Positions 2,649 through 8,078 of a stretch of 11,167 nt of DNA are shown here, piece by piece. The stretch is from Desulfovibrio sp. Lineage in GTDB: Bacteria > Desulfobacterota > Desulfovibrionia > Desulfovibrionales > Desulfovibrionaceae. The notes below the pieces were generated by a model that saw nothing but the letters and a program-made list of their open reading frames with translations, had not been told where the DNA came from and ran no database searches. Made by a program: the position numbers and the translations under genes. The stretch covers positions 1 through 11,167 of the forward strand of contig JAQVZK010000037.1 in assembly GCA_028708195.1 (NCBI GenBank), in the 5' to 3' direction. Position 1 is the first letter of the stretch; each line of letters begins with the position of its first letter.

Positions 2649-4028
2649 ATGTCATCATCCATCGAAAAAGGCCACGGCTGGCTTCTTATTGCGGTTTGTA
2701 CCTCACTGTTCTGTATGCCCTTCATGATGGCCGGGGTGAATGCTGTTCTGCCGCCTATGGCCGCAGACCTGAACGCCAGCGTGCAGGAACTGGGGCTTAT
2801 GGGGGCCTTCTACGCGATGGGGCTTGCCGTTTTTCAGCTAGCCAGCGGCAGTCTTGGCGATATTTTGGGGTACCGGCGCATCTTCATTTGGGGCACAGTC
2901 ATCTTTGGTATTAGCGGGGCCTTGCTGGGGTTTGCCCCTTCTGTAGAAGTGTTTTTGGGGTTGCGCCTTGTGCAGGGCGTGGGTGGGGCCATGTTCAACG
3001 CCTGCGGTCTTGCGCTTCTGGCGTCGGCGGCACCTCCTGAAAAAAGGGCCATCTATCTTGGCTACAGTGGGTCCGCCGTTTATGCGGGTATTGCCTGCGG
3101 CCCCCCCGTGGCGGGCTTTGTGGCTGGCTGGCTTGACTGGCGCTGGCTTTTTTGGGGCAACGCCTTTGCGTCCCTCGGCGTGCTTCTGCTTATGAAGTAC
3201 TGCGTAAAGCTTGACTGGCGCACGGCCAAGGGCCGCCCCTTTGACTGGGGAGGCTGTATAATCTACGGGCTGGCCATGACGGCGCTGACCTTTGGCTCGT
3301 CAGAACTGGCGGATTACCCCGTCATGGCGGGTTGCCTGCTGGCGGCGTTCGTCGTTCTTATGGTGCTGTTCTGCTTCAAGGAACTGCGCAGCGAGTTTCC
3401 CATTCTTGATATTCGTCTGCTGGCGCGCAACCGGGTTTTCGCCCTGTCGTCGCTGGCGGCCTTCATCAATTACAGCTCCTTTTTCGGCATCCTTTTCTTT
3501 TTCAGCCTGTATCTGCAGTTTGGCCTGGGCATGACGGTGCAGCAGGCGGGCATGTTTCTGGCCTTGCAATCTCTGGTGCAGGCTTTGATGACGCCCGTGG
3601 CGGCCCGGTTGTGCCTCAAGTTCGATCCCGGCCATGTGAGCGCGGTGGGCGTGGGCTTATGCGGTCTGGGGCTTTTGACGTCGGCTTTTCTGGAAATTGA
3701 TTCGCCCATAGGCGTGCTGCTGGCTGCCCAGGGGTTGCTTGGCGTGGGTATAAGTCTTTTCGCGCTGCCCAATACCACCATTATTCTCGAAAGCGCGGGG
3801 CCGGAGCACGTGGGGCAGGCATCCGGCCTGACAGGAGCCGTGCGCACTGGCGGGCAGCTTGTAAACATGGCTGTCATCACGCTGACCCTGGGTTTTTTTC
3901 TGGGCGATCAGGCTGCCGGGCCGGAAACCATAGACGCTTTTATGGACAGTATGCACGTTGACCTGGTGGTCTTTGGCGTACTGAATCTGCTGGCCGTGGG
4001 CTGCGTGCTGGCGCGCAACAGAAAGTAA
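2649..4028 (+). CDS. MFS transporter, DHA2 / EmrB-QacA-like (14-TM drug:H+ antiporter type)
   Basis: Inner-membrane secondary transporter, probably a proton-driven exporter; the substrate is unknown. The protein is 459 aa and very hydrophobic, with about 14 predicted membrane spans. Major-facilitator motifs are visible: motif A GSLGDILGYRR (67-77), the motif B arginine in RLVQGVGG (R106), and the antiporter motif C GPPVAGFVAGW (151-161) followed by LDWRWLFWGN, typical of the 14-TM DHA2 group. ATG 2649 is chosen because the next Met residues lie inside TM1, and the frame upstream (open from 2316) is non-coding in character. There is no ribosome-binding site, which fits the promoter position and a leaderless start. 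No regulator or periplasmic adaptor gene is adjacent, so it may work alone. No clear terminator follows; the next promoter starts 37 bases after its TAA. Confidence 0.88.
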   Translation: MSSSIEKGHGWLLIAVCTSLFCMPFMMAGVNAVLPPMAADLNASVQELGLMGAFYAMGLAVFQLASGSLGDILGYRRIFIWGTVIFGISGALLGFAPSVEVFLGLRLVQGVGGAMFNACGLALLASAAPPEKRAIYLGYSGSAVYAGIACGPPVAGFVAGWLDWRWLFWGNAFASLGVLLLMKYCVKLDWRTAKGRPFDWGGCIIYGLAMTALTFGSSELADYPVMAGCLLAAFVVLMVLFCFKELRSEFPILDIRLLARNRVFALSSLAAFINYSSFFGILFFFSLYLQFGLGMTVQQAGMFLALQSLVQALMTPVAARLCLKFDPGHVSAVGVGLCGLGLLTSAFLEIDSPIGVLLAAQGLLGVGISLFALPNTTIILESAGPEHVGQASGLTGAVRTGGQLVNMAVITLTLGFFLGDQAAGPETIDAFMDSMHVDLVVFGVLNLLAVGCVLARNRK

Positions 4029-4064
4029 ATGAAAAAATGGCGGTATCAGGGGCAGAAAAAAGTC

Positions 4065-4091
4065 TAAAGTTTTTTGTAGGGCAGCCGAACA
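4065..4091 (+). promoter_or_regulatory. Sigma-28 (FliA) promoter for the DVU0524-like gene and flgM
   Basis: TAAAGTTT (4065-4072), exactly 11 bases, then GCCGAACA (4084-4091). This matches the enterobacterial FliA consensus TAAAGTTT-N11-GCCGATAA at 14 of 16 fixed positions. Predicted start is near 4098, giving a leader of about 16 bases to the ATG at 4114. Placing flgM under sigma-28 is the familiar negative autoregulatory arrangement. Confidence 0.8.
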
Positions 4092-4113
4092 AGCAGTAAG
4101 GACGGAGAGATTC

Positions 4114-4602
4114 ATGGCCGACGCCAATTCCGCAAAACTGCGCATGATGCTACAAGGGTATGAGCAGCAACTGCTGGCAGCCCGGCGTCTTGCGCGTTTT
4201 CGGGTTCGCATGCGGCTGGCGCACGGCGATGCGCCTGATGATCCTGACCCGGCAGCCAACAGGCATGCCTGCGTTGAAAAAGTGGCGCGCGAGCTGTATG
4301 AAACTCTGATCTTCACCGGCAGTGATAACCCCGTGGTGGAGAAAATCCGCCAGGAACTGGGCAGGGAAGTGGGGCAGGAAGTGCGCTTCACCTATCCGCC
4401 AGGCCAGAGACTGCATATTGTGGGCGAAGGCCCGGAAGGCATGCAGCCGCTGCCCGAGGATTTGCACAGAAGAACACGGCATGCCCTGTGGCGCATCACC
4501 CGCGACACGGTAGACAAAAGTATGCTGGAAGAGCCGCCAAAAGATGGAAATTTTGTGAAACCGGCGGCACAGGGCGGTGCGGAAGTGCCGTCAGCGGAGT
4601 AG
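4114..4602 (+). CDS. DVU0524-like FlgM-associated protein of unknown function
   Basis: A 162-aa soluble, strongly charged protein with no signal peptide or membrane segment. The N-terminal third is rich in Arg, Leu and Ala and looks helical. A compact middle block (ARELYETLIFTGSDNPVVEK, about 57-76, then a REVGQEVRF segment) looks like the conserved part, and the last 20 residues appear disordered. It resembles the hypothetical gene found next to flgM in Desulfovibrio, which I recall being named the DVU0524 family of FlgM-associated proteins; that match is from memory. The ATG has a GGAG (4104-4107) at 6-base spacing. It is the first gene behind the sigma-28 promoter, and the end of its coding region supplies the Shine-Dalgarno of flgM, so the two are co-transcribed and probably translationally coupled. 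A role in FlgM or FliA control is inferred from position only. Confidence 0.75.
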   Translation: MADANSAKLRMMLQGYEQQLLAARRLARFRVRMRLAHGDAPDDPDPAANRHACVEKVARELYETLIFTGSDNPVVEKIRQELGREVGQEVRFTYPPGQRLHIVGEGPEGMQPLPEDLHRRTRHALWRITRDTVDKSMLEEPPKDGNFVKPAAQGGAEVPSAE

Positions 4603-4605
4603 TGT

Positions 4606-4929
4606 ATGGAAATCAAGAATACAACGAACAGCTTTTTTGATCCTTATGCCGCCGGGCTGGACAAGAGCGCCGAGGCCAGAACTGACACGCGCCTGAAAGC
4701 ACGTGCCGAAGGTACTGGCACGGAAGCCCCGCAAGGGGATACGGTCAGCGTTTCACAGGATGCCCTGCTGCTGACGGAAGCGCGCCGCGCCGCACAAAGC
4801 GCGCCGGACGTGCGCTAGGAAAAAGTCGAGGCCCTGCGCATTCAGGTTGCCAACGGAACCTACAAGCCAGACAGCAAGCTTATCGCCGCCAATCTTGCGC
4901 GCGAAGAACCAGGCCTGTTCCAGATATAG
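4606..4929 (+). pseudogene. flgM: flgM, anti-sigma-28 factor, interrupted by an in-frame TAG at codon 71
   Basis: FlgM binds sigma-28 (FliA) in the cytoplasm and is exported through the finished hook to release late flagellar gene expression. The frame begins at ATG 4606 with GGAG (4596-4599) inside the preceding gene. The first 70 codons end in GDTVSVSQDALLLTEARRA...APDVR, a typical start of the FlgM domain. Codon 71 is TAG (4816-4818). The same frame then continues with EKVEALRIQVANGTYKPDSK and ends in EEPGLFQI before a second TAG at 4927-4929. This is exactly the conserved sigma-28-binding C-terminal half of FlgM, so the intact protein would be 107 aa. A single change, such as CAG to TAG, explains it. 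The 70-aa product should be unable to bind sigma-28. Alternatives are a sequencing error, amber suppression, or recoding; recoding is unlikely because TAG ends most other genes here. Confidence 0.88.
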
Positions 4930-5022
4930 TTTTATAGCCTTCGTCTGACGCGCACTGCGTTCATGCCGCCACAGAGTGGCAGGGCAGTACCGCGCACCAT
5001 CAGGCCAGATTTTATAGTACGG

Positions 5023-5067
5023 CCCCGACCCCGCTCCCTGTGAGCGAGGTCGGGGTTTTGGCGTTTT
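5023..5067 (+). terminator. Intrinsic terminator of the DVU0524-like/flgM unit
   Basis: A 14-bp stem with one C/A mismatch: CCCCGACC-c-CGCTC (5023-5036) pairs with GAGCG-a-GGTCGGGG (5042-5055) around a 5-base loop. It is followed directly by TTTTGGCGTTTT (5056-5067). It lies 93 bases after the flgM stop and separates flgM from flgI. Confidence 0.88.
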
Positions 5068-5106
5068 GAGCCGTTGATGCTTGTGTGGCGCTGACTTCAA
5101 GCCGTT

Positions 5107-5122
5107 CGGCACGGTTTCTGCA
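5107..5122 (+). promoter_or_regulatory. Sigma-54 promoter for flgI-flgJ
   Basis: CGGCACG-GTTT-CTGCA, with the invariant GG (5108-5109) and GC (5120-5121) exactly 10 bases apart, against the consensus TGGCACG-N4-TTGCA. Predicted start is near 5133, leaving about 29 bases including the flgI ribosome-binding site. It lies after the terminator, so flgI has its own promoter. Confidence 0.75.
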
Positions 5123-5161
5123 GAACAGGCTGTGCCGGTATTCCGGCAAGGAGTCAGCGCC

Positions 5162-6274
5162 ATGAAATTGACAATCTTGCGCAATCCCGCCCTGTGGATA
5201 TTCACCGCAGCTCTGCTTATCAGCATGGCCCTTCCCGCACAGGCGGCGCGCATCAAGGATATTGCCAACTTTTCCGGTGTTCGTGACAACCAGCTCATTG
5301 GCTACGGCCTTGTGGTTGGCCTGGCGGGCACGGGCGATAAAAAAGATTCAGTCTTTACCATGAGTTCCATGAAAAATATGATGGACCGCATGGGTATTGG
5401 CGTGGACTCCGCTGCGCTCAAGACCAAGAACGTGGCATCCGTCATGGTGACGGCCCGTATGCCCATCTCGGCCAAGCCGGGCACGAGCCTTGACGTTACC
5501 GTGTCTTCTGTGGGCGACGCCACCTCCCTTTTGGGCGGCGTACTGCTGCAAACGGCCCTCAAGGGCGTGGACGGCAAGATATACACTCTGGCCCAGGGCT
5601 CGTTGACGGTGGGTGGCTTTTCCAGCCAGGGCAAGGCGGCCAGCGTCAGCAAGAATATCAGTACGGTGGGTATTATCCCCGGTGGCGGCATTGTGGAGCG
5701 CGGCATCCCCTTTGAGTTCAATCAGCAGGACAAGCTCACCCTGCACCTGCGCACCGCAGACTTCAGCACTGCCCAGCAGATAGCCGAACGCGTCAACGGC
5801 GCCATGAGCGGCCCCTTTGCCCGCGCTGTTGACGATATGTCCATCACAGTGGATATCCCCCCCCAGTACCGTCACAATATGGTGCCTCTCATGGCCTCCA
5901 TTGAAAATCTGGACGTCAGCCCGGACACAGCCGCCAAGGTGGTTGTGGACGAAAAGACCGGTACAGTGGTGCTTGGCCGCGATGTGCGCATCATGCGTGC
6001 GGCGGTGGCCCACGGCAACTTGCAGATAACCGTGCAGGAAGGCCAGCAGGTGTCGCAGCCCGGGCCTTTCTCGCAGGGGCAGACTGTTGTGACGCCCATT
6101 ACAGAAACCAATGTGCGTGAAGAAAACCGCCACCTGATCATCGTTGAAGGTGCAACCCTTCAGGAACTGGTGGACGGCCTCAATTCCATCGGGGCTACCC
6201 CGCGCGACCTTATTTCCATCCTGCGCACCATGCAGGTTTCCGGTGCGCTGTTGGCGGAGCTGGAGGTAATCTAG
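5162..6274 (+). CDS. flgI: Flagellar P-ring protein FlgI
   Basis: Forms the periplasmic P-ring around the flagellar rod, at the peptidoglycan layer. The protein is 370 aa, close to the usual 365. A signal peptide covers about residues 1-29 (hydrophobic core, then PAQAA), and the mature start [18 protein letters not shown] is highly characteristic. Further family blocks are [47 protein letters not shown], the [11 protein letters not shown] motif, and a C-terminal [23 protein letters not shown] 5162 is chosen over the open frame upstream (from 5081) because AAGGAG (5148-5153) sits 8 bases before it and a proper signal peptide follows. The protein contains no cysteine, unlike E. coli FlgI, which needs a disulfide. 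flgJ begins 1 base after its TAG. The flgF/G/A/H genes that often precede flgI are not in this window upstream. Confidence 0.97.
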
Positions 6275-6275
6275 C

Positions 6276-8078
6276 ATGACCTCGCCTCTTACCACAGGTC
6301 TTGTGCCGCATGAGGCCAGCGGGGCTGAAGTGTCCCGCCGCGAGATGCAGTCCCGCCTGGCGGGCGTGAGCAACCTCAACGGCAAAAAAATGACGGAAGC
6401 GGATAAAGAAAAGAAACTTCGCGAAGCCTGCGAGGGCTTTGAATCCATATTTATTCAGAAAATGTGGCAGGAGATGCGCAGCACCCTGCCCAAGACCAAT
6501 ATGCTGCAAGGCCGCGAAGAGCAGTACTGGCAGAGCATGTATGATCAGGAACTGGCCAAATCTATGACGGCGGCGGGCGGTATCGGTCTGGCCGACATGA
6601 TGTACGCCCAGCTTTCGCGCGACCTTGTTTCTGCCAGCCGTGGTACGGCCTCGGCTCAGGCGGGGGCCGCGCCCGGTTTTGTGCCGCAGGTCGCCTCCAT
6701 CATGCCGCAGGCAGAGCAGGCAGGCCAGGCAGATGGCAGTCCCGAAGGGCAAAACAATTCTCAGGGCAGGGCGGGGCATACCGCCATGCGGGGCAATGTG
6801 CCCATACCTTCCGTGTATGACGGCATTGCGCCGGTACAGAACGTGGGCGAATCCATGCAGCTTCAGGTGCTGCCGGGCGGCACCGGCTCTGCCCAGGCCG
6901 CGCTGGCTGCGGCGGGGCAACCCGCCTCGCAGGCCCCTGCGGTGGCAACGCCCCCTGCGGTAGAACAGGCCCTGACCGCCTTGCGCACCCAGAAGGAATC
7001 TCAAGCCCGTCAGGAAGGGGAGCCGCGCACACCCAACATGAATACGGGCCTGAACCTCGCACGCGCAGCACAGTTTGAGGCGGGCAGCAAGGTGGGCGCA
7101 CGCGCGGGTATGCCGCGCACCCATCTTAACGGCCCCGCCTACAATCCCAATGGCATGGCCGGGCAGGCCGCCCATCCGGCAACGGGCCAGGGGAACCAGG
7201 CCGTACAGGCAGCCAACGCCGGGCAGGCCGCTCAGGCACTGGACATGCAGATGCGCATGGCCCAGAGCATGGGCACGCCCGCAGCCATGCAGGCCGCCAT
7301 GCAGCTTGGGCAGCCCGACCAGGCGCAGGGCCAGATGATGGGCCAGGCGCAGGGCCAGCCCAATATGCAGGCCGCCGCGCAATCCGGTATTCCTGTGCCC
7401 AGGCCGCAACAAACAGCGCAACCTGCCCGCGGTGTCATAACGCCGGGGCCGTCCGTTGCCGCAGGGCAGGAGGCCGCACAGGCACCGCACGTCCAGAAAG
7501 TGCGCTACACAACCAACATGCCAGCCAGCCAGCGTAAAACCTCTGGCAGCGACATTTTGCGCAATCTTGCTGTGGAAAATGCCGCCCTGCCGCAACAGGC
7601 ACAGCAGCAGGCACAGCGGCGGGTACAGCCGCAGGCTCAGCAGCCCCAGGCGGGGTCTGCGCTGCCGTCACAACCCGCTGCCGCCGGGCAAGAAGCCGCG
7701 CAGCCGCAGATGCAAAAGGTGCGCTACACAACCAACATGCCAGCCAGCCAGCGCAAAACTTCTGGCAGCGACATTTTGCGCAACCGCAACGTGGACGCCG
7801 CCGGCCCCAACAGCCGCGCAGGTGCGGGATTGGCAGCCTACCATGCCCAGCAGGCCGCACAGCCCCTTCAGGCCGGGCAGCCACAGCAGGCCGGGCAGCC
7901 GCTGCCACCAGCAGCGCCCGCAGCGCAGCCTCCTGTGCCGCCCATGACTGGCCAGCCCGCGTGGCCTGTCGCACCCTTAACGCCCGCAACGCCGTTGGTT
8001 TCTCAGCCTGCGCAGCAGGGTCAGATGCCTGAAAGCCTTGGTATCCCGCCCCTTACGGCTATGGATCTGCGGCGCTGA
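6276..8078 (+). CDS. flgJ: Rod-binding protein FlgJ with a very long Ala/Gln/Pro-rich C-terminal extension
   Basis: FlgJ caps the growing rod in the periplasm. The N-terminal rod-binding domain lies about residues 45-115, with ACEGFESIFIQKMWQEMR (51-68), a QGREEQYWQSMYDQELAKSM segment (78-97) and the GGIGLADMMYAQL ending (101-113). The remaining 480 or so residues are low complexity, rich in Ala, Gln, Pro and Gly. They contain a Met/Gln-rich stretch (324-364) and two copies of a 24-residue motif containing VRYTTNMPASQRKTSG (407-430 and 480-503). No glucosaminidase/muramidase domain of the Salmonella type is visible, so a separate enzyme would have to open the peptidoglycan. At 600 aa it is much longer than single-domain FlgJ proteins (about 100-150 aa). 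GGAGG (6262-6266) within the end of flgI provides the ribosome-binding site. The frame is continuous, with no sign of a fusion to a known domain. Confidence 0.92.
   Translation: MTSPLTTGLVPHEASGAEVSRREMQSRLAGVSNLNGKKMTEADKEKKLREACEGFESIFIQKMWQEMRSTLPKTNMLQGREEQYWQSMYDQELAKSMTAAGGIGLADMMYAQLSRDLVSASRGTASAQAGAAPGFVPQVASIMPQAEQAGQADGSPEGQNNSQGRAGHTAMRGNVPIPSVYDGIAPVQNVGESMQLQVLPGGTGSAQAALAAAGQPASQAPAVATPPAVEQALTALRTQKESQARQEGEPRTPNMNTGLNLARAAQFEAGSKVGARAGMPRTHLNGPAYNPNGMAGQAAHPATGQGNQAVQAANAGQAAQALDMQMRMAQSMGTPAAMQAAMQLGQPDQAQGQMMGQAQGQPNMQAAAQSGIPVPRPQQTAQPARGVITPGPSVAAGQEAAQAPHVQKVRYTTNMPASQRKTSGSDILRNLAVENAALPQQAQQQAQRRVQPQAQQPQAGSALPSQPAAAGQEAAQPQMQKVRYTTNMPASQRKTSGSDILRNRNVDAAGPNSRAGAGLAAYHAQQAAQPLQAGQPQQAGQPLPPAAPAAQPPVPPMTGQPAWPVAPLTPATPLVSQPAQQGQMPESLGIPPLTAMDLRR
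7494..7565 (+). repeat. FlgJ tail motif, copy 1
   Basis: This encodes residues 407-430 of FlgJ, a 24-residue block containing VRYTTNMPASQRKTSG. It is repeated 219 bases downstream with an identical amino-acid sequence. A shared AAGQEAAQ segment precedes both copies. Confidence 0.95.
7713..7784 (+). repeat. FlgJ tail motif, copy 2
   Basis: This encodes residues 480-503. The DNA matches copy 1 at 67 of 72 positions, and all five differences are third-position synonymous changes (caa/cag, aag/aaa, cgc/cgt, act/acc, aac/aat). The peptide is therefore identical while the DNA has drifted. Confidence 0.95.

Follow-up and report, generated by a model that had tools for sequence, protein, structure and literature searches.

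We have found that the flgM frame in this Desulfovibrio assembly is interrupted by one in-frame TAG at codon 71, and, judging from the sequence alone, we would put the chances at about even that this is a recent nonsense allele of the strain or population. Taken as biology, a stop of this kind in one gene is an ordinary lesion, and there is no sign of a novel decoding of codons. The window, i.e., the whole stretch of DNA that was analysed (11,167 nucleotides), is contig C102 of an assembly of 2,304,003 bases in 344 contigs, which is 78.08% complete. On the forward strand, the flgM frame (4606-4929) translates into 70 residues, the TAG at 4816-4818, 36 further residues and a final TAG at 4927-4929. 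Its features are as follows.

4596..4599, + strand: GGAG, 6 bases 5' of the flgM ATG, putatively ribosome-binding to judge from its letters
4606..4818, + strand: translated part of flgM, 70 codons and the TAG; alone it scores 15 bits to PF04316 (cut-off 25)
4738..4899, + strand: Pfam FlgM domain spanning the stop, 60.7 bits, with one TAG inside
4816..4818, + strand: in-frame TAG, codon 71; no stop here in the seven relatives compared
4819..4929, + strand: what remains of flgM behind the stop, 36 untranslated codons plus a TAG; alone it scores 33.1 bits to PF04316
4897..4899, + strand: codon 98 of flgM, Ala; Val, Ile or Leu in 84 of 84 placed homologues

Read across the TAG, the frame matches the FlgM family above its cut-off. 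The initial annotation had described a good FlgM C-terminus in the 36 codons behind the stop, and both the translation and the score of this part confirm it; by their family scores, the two halves on either side of the TAG are both FlgM. The predicted 70-residue product stays below the cut-offs of PF04316 and of TIGR03824 (18 vs 40.75 bits for the latter), so that the earlier statement that it lacks the second half of the domain holds as well. On the other hand, the stop had been placed exactly at the start of the sigma-28-binding half, while it actually lies in the middle of the domain, with 26 of the 55 Pfam positions preceding it. Compared with solved structures, flgM matches one FlgM chain (9wsf_B, E 1.3e-6), and the remaining four rows look like chance. 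The flgM DNA has no match in E. coli genomes, as expected, and Rfam has none anywhere in the window.

The frame is not a chance one, because the best DNA match, the related genome G010, aligns with window positions 4002-6300 in a single piece (2.3 kb, 89% nucleotide identity) and has an open FlgM of 107 residues. Among the 60 FlgM matches from 79 genomes of the genus (own genome counted), only the present flgM has an internal stop, and the same is true for the 49 matches from a second, overlapping set of 61 genomes. Order-wide, 285 of 348 genomes have a FlgM match, and among the matches listed the stop again occurs in this flgM only. An alignment with sister strains, which had been proposed earlier, shows seven relatives intact at codon 71, with Ser in G010, G057, G058, G008 and MES5, and Ala in G024 and G019. 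This TAG, present here and absent from the relatives checked, has the distribution that would be expected of a recent nonsense pseudogene. As to its origin, the proposal of one base change stands, but CAG, the example given for it, does not, since these relatives have Ser (5) or Ala (2); as the nearest ones have Ser, one change from a serine codon is likely instead. Glutamine does occur at residue 71 in the wider family, since a pattern that placed 98 of the 120 homologues listed (out of 132; 22 of the 120 not placed) gave A 73, S 10, T 10, Q 4 and E 1. The closest FlgM protein among the matches listed is 92% identical, but the protein database groups its entries at 90%, so that a cluster might conceal an intact copy of the same species. 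No report of this allele appears among the titles and abstract openings of the papers listed, which proves little. Apart from the stop, the spacing between the flgM and flgI matches varies, from ~0.2 kb here (window 4929-5162) to 0.5 kb in G008, 1.9 kb in G020 and G058, and 3 kb in G057.

We have further counted the changes on the own branch since G010, which were polarised with the outgroups G057, G058, MES5 and G008 (7 differences in flgM are unassigned). Codons 1-70 have 8 synonymous changes and no replacement, and codons 72-107 have 5 synonymous changes and one replacement (V98A), out of 247 replacement or nonsense and 77 synonymous single changes possible in the latter. This bears out the earlier remark that the downstream half is without visible decay. 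As replacements are so few, the second half was constrained for most of the own branch; either the stop arose late, or ribosomes read through it, or the consensus has a wrong base at this point. V98A itself may hint, weakly, at a constraint that was relaxed once the stop had arisen: among the 120 homologues listed (of 132), residue 98 is V in 51, I in 29 and L in 4 of the 84 placed, with 36 not placed. The hint is weak because flgI, although intact, has itself gathered 5 replacements on the own branch, each at a site that does not otherwise vary among the six relatives compared.

If the TAG is real, a single base change would have turned an ordinary codon 71 into a stop in the strain or population, ribosomes would halt there, and the product would be a fragment of 70 residues that lacks the second half of the domain. 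This fragment should not hold FliA (sigma-28) and would probably be inactive, so that the late flagellar genes would no longer wait for the hook before they come on; the adjoining flagellar genes would stay intact. A passage on FlgM function in coli and Salmonella is found in PMC3930126. According to a part of PMC4284756, the C-terminal half of FlgM becomes structured upon binding sigma-28, and an excerpt of PMC4598750 describes FlgM as wrapping around the outside of sigma FliA, thereby blocking the polymerase-binding sites of sigma-2 and sigma-4. In a passage of PMC5809477, simulated Salmonella flgM mutants lose the late-gene delay, in agreement with experiments cited there. The corresponding part of PMC11187230 reports longer or more flagella for flgM mutants of several species, yet no significant length change in its own data for a C. 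jejuni flgM deletion. The effects thus differ from one species to another.

The gene for FliA is present and open (243.6 bits; 278 aa from ATG), and flgI, flgN and flgK are open frames, of which flgN was checked by a family search, while flgI and flgK presumably bear their right names, which come from the initial annotation and gene order. The features next to flgM are the following.

4114..4602, + strand: 162-aa gene directly upstream of flgM, DVU0524-like according to the initial annotation; no Pfam match at E 0.1
5021..5057, + strand: hairpin followed by T-rich sequence between flgM and flgI, terminator-like by folding energy
5162..6274, + strand: flgI, an open frame, named after the initial annotation and gene order

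The hairpin (fold of 5015-5065) has a folding energy of -28.7 kcal/mol with a z of -3.73, and 1 of 200 shuffles is as good; a scan for terminator patterns does not list 5021-5057. Given this terminator-like hairpin, a polar effect of the flgM stop on flgI would not be expected. A second FlgM was not found in the assembly (78% complete), and in the genus each of the 60 genomes with a match has a single copy. Two other frames of the window show repeats: the 600-aa frame at the place of flgJ (6276-8078, + strand) has a high content of Q, A and P, and the stretch QKVRYTTNMPASQRKTSGSDILRN occurs in it twice, and a 512-aa frame (52-1590, - strand) has short tandem repeats around the motif PASDV at its end.

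To what extent a single base of this assembly can be trusted is addressed by a survey of in-frame stops, in which 1.2 Mb of G010 supplied 987 frames, each 100 aa or longer, for comparison with 61 own contigs (528,775 of the 2,304,003 bases). Rows were kept when the third-position share of differences was at least 0.55 and the codon score above 0.15, thresholds that were set after the first result. That first survey, on 41 own contigs, had given 89 rows at 70% identity or more, of which 69 passed a third-position filter and 10 of the 69 had stops; by eye, these were shadow frames, pre-start stretches, a non-coding stretch, flgM and two possible real cases. In the final survey, 166 rows reached at least 75% identity; 128 were kept and 38 dropped, 13 of the dropped rows having stops. 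Six of the 128 kept genes have an in-frame stop, namely flgM at codon 71 and five others at codons 4, 4, 15, 17 and 23 of the G010 frame. We read the latter five as G010 frames begun too early; none of the 127 other kept genes has a stop beyond codon 23. In addition, none of 48 ABC-domain matches has an internal stop. Taken together, the two counts indicate that stops are not scattered over the assembly.

Two of the dropped rows may be real genes and would then add two interrupted genes. One is a frame which we take to be MOSC-like, with a TGA near its start at a G010 cysteine (L109:7657-7659; G000:C138, - strand), which might stand for selenocysteine, lie before a later start or be a lesion. 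The other, which we take to be VWA-like, has a TAG at a G010 lysine (L105:34-36; G000:C64); conservation is poor around it, and the contig ends 11 codons away. As a separate observation, one 291-aa G010 frame matches twice at L216:5035-6648 (G000:C127), with 95% and 75% identity, so that two related genes lie in tandem there. A codon-usage scan for frames continuing past stops was discarded, as it was swamped by antisense shadow frames and N-filled contigs.

The survey has also revealed a lesion of another kind. The leuS gene (L100:9964-12476; G000:C3, - strand) is one base short of G010 in mid-gene, being the only frameshifted gene among the 128 kept. A family search finds leuS in three pieces at this locus, with the frame switch at C3:10947, while all matches at other loci fall far short of the cut-off. 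Leucyl-tRNA synthetase is essential, and for this reason the frameshift most likely stems from faulty assembly or from blending in the consensus. The broken leuS thus means that base-level errors do occur in the assembly.

In favour of a recent nonsense allele, the stop occurs in 1 of 60 genus matches with seven relatives open and the nearest one base away; the own branch has no replacement before the stop and one after it; and internal stops are absent from the other 127 genes beyond codon 23 and from the 48 ABC domains, with FliA open. This reading is weakened because the TAG base is taken from the consensus of an assembly in which leuS is frameshifted, and because 22% of the genome is missing, so that a second flgM is possible there. 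The chief alternative is that the fragmented assembly has a wrong base at the TAG, or blends several strains there, and that the living strain has an intact flgM, which we regard as quite possible, though short of an even chance. The interrupted leuS, with no other leuS over the cut-off, the fragmentation into 344 contigs at 78% completeness and the remainder of flgM, which carries no other lesion, all fit such an error. However, the leuS lesion is an indel and that of flgM a substitution, and the clean counts for the 127 genes and the ABC domains speak against this reading. The replacement counts are also against it, with no clear excess on the own branch over that of G010: replacement to synonymous changes are 5/30 vs 3/26 for flgI and 7/13 vs 3/11 for the 162-aa gene. 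Of the three options that the initial annotation had left side by side (a recent event, read-through or a sequencing error), the last has thus gained weight through leuS, while read-through has found no support in the PylS search, the tRNAs or the 127 genes.

The frame conserved after the stop would suit a TAG that is real and read through by a suppressor tRNA, as pyrrolysine or by leaky termination, yielding some full-length FlgM, yet we hold this to be very unlikely. A search for pyl genes and an amber-suppressor tRNA had been recommended earlier. In the 78% of the genome at hand, a CUA anticodon is absent from the 26 tRNAs found, and the search for PylS gives 30.9 bits at best, where the cut-off is 178.15. 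As 13 of 14 control genomes match PylS too, one of them over the cut-off, the match here looks like another synthetase. No further internal TAG exists in the 127 other kept genes (the dropped row at the contig end has one), and the relatives have no stop in flgM. It was stated before that TAG ends metF, the DVU0524-like 162-aa gene, flgI, flgN and flgK, and this is correct; these are 5 of 7 further complete window genes that were checked (the MFS gene ends with TAA and the gene at the place of flgJ with TGA), so TAG is an ordinary stop here. Low, perhaps regulated read-through, giving little full-length FlgM beside the 70-residue fragment and making the stop a dose control of the flagellar checkpoint, seems to us less likely again. 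The least likely of all is a split gene, whose C-terminal part would be translated from an internal start and still bind FliA: this part does score as FlgM on its own, but no ATG, GTG or TTG follows the TAG in frame (4819-4929), and a rare start codon would be needed.

If the nonsense allele is real, a lineage of sulfate reducers would have lost FlgM naturally while FliA and the adjacent flagellar genes are still open, and nature would thereby have done a small experiment on the FlgM checkpoint. Should the TAG be an error instead, it would serve as a reminder that a lone stop codon in a fragmented assembly has to be checked against reads, for which the broken leuS in the same assembly is a concrete case.

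Overall, the locus can be compared with three known systems. It resembles the FlgM anti-sigma-28 factor (PF04316, TIGR03824) in its sequence on both sides of the stop, its flagellar gene neighbours, its single copy and the presence of FliA, but the domain here is not in one open frame and the predicted product ends after 26 of 55 positions. With UAG read as pyrrolysine or by amber suppression it shares an in-frame UAG followed by conserved coding sequence, while it differs in a PylS match below the cut-off, the lack of CUA among 26 tRNAs and a stop that is not conserved. Compared with an ordinary bacterial nonsense pseudogene, the difference is that the flgM lesion is only a single base, which may be an assembly error and is hence unproven, whereas the likeness lies in one stop within a well-kept flgM frame, absent from the relatives.
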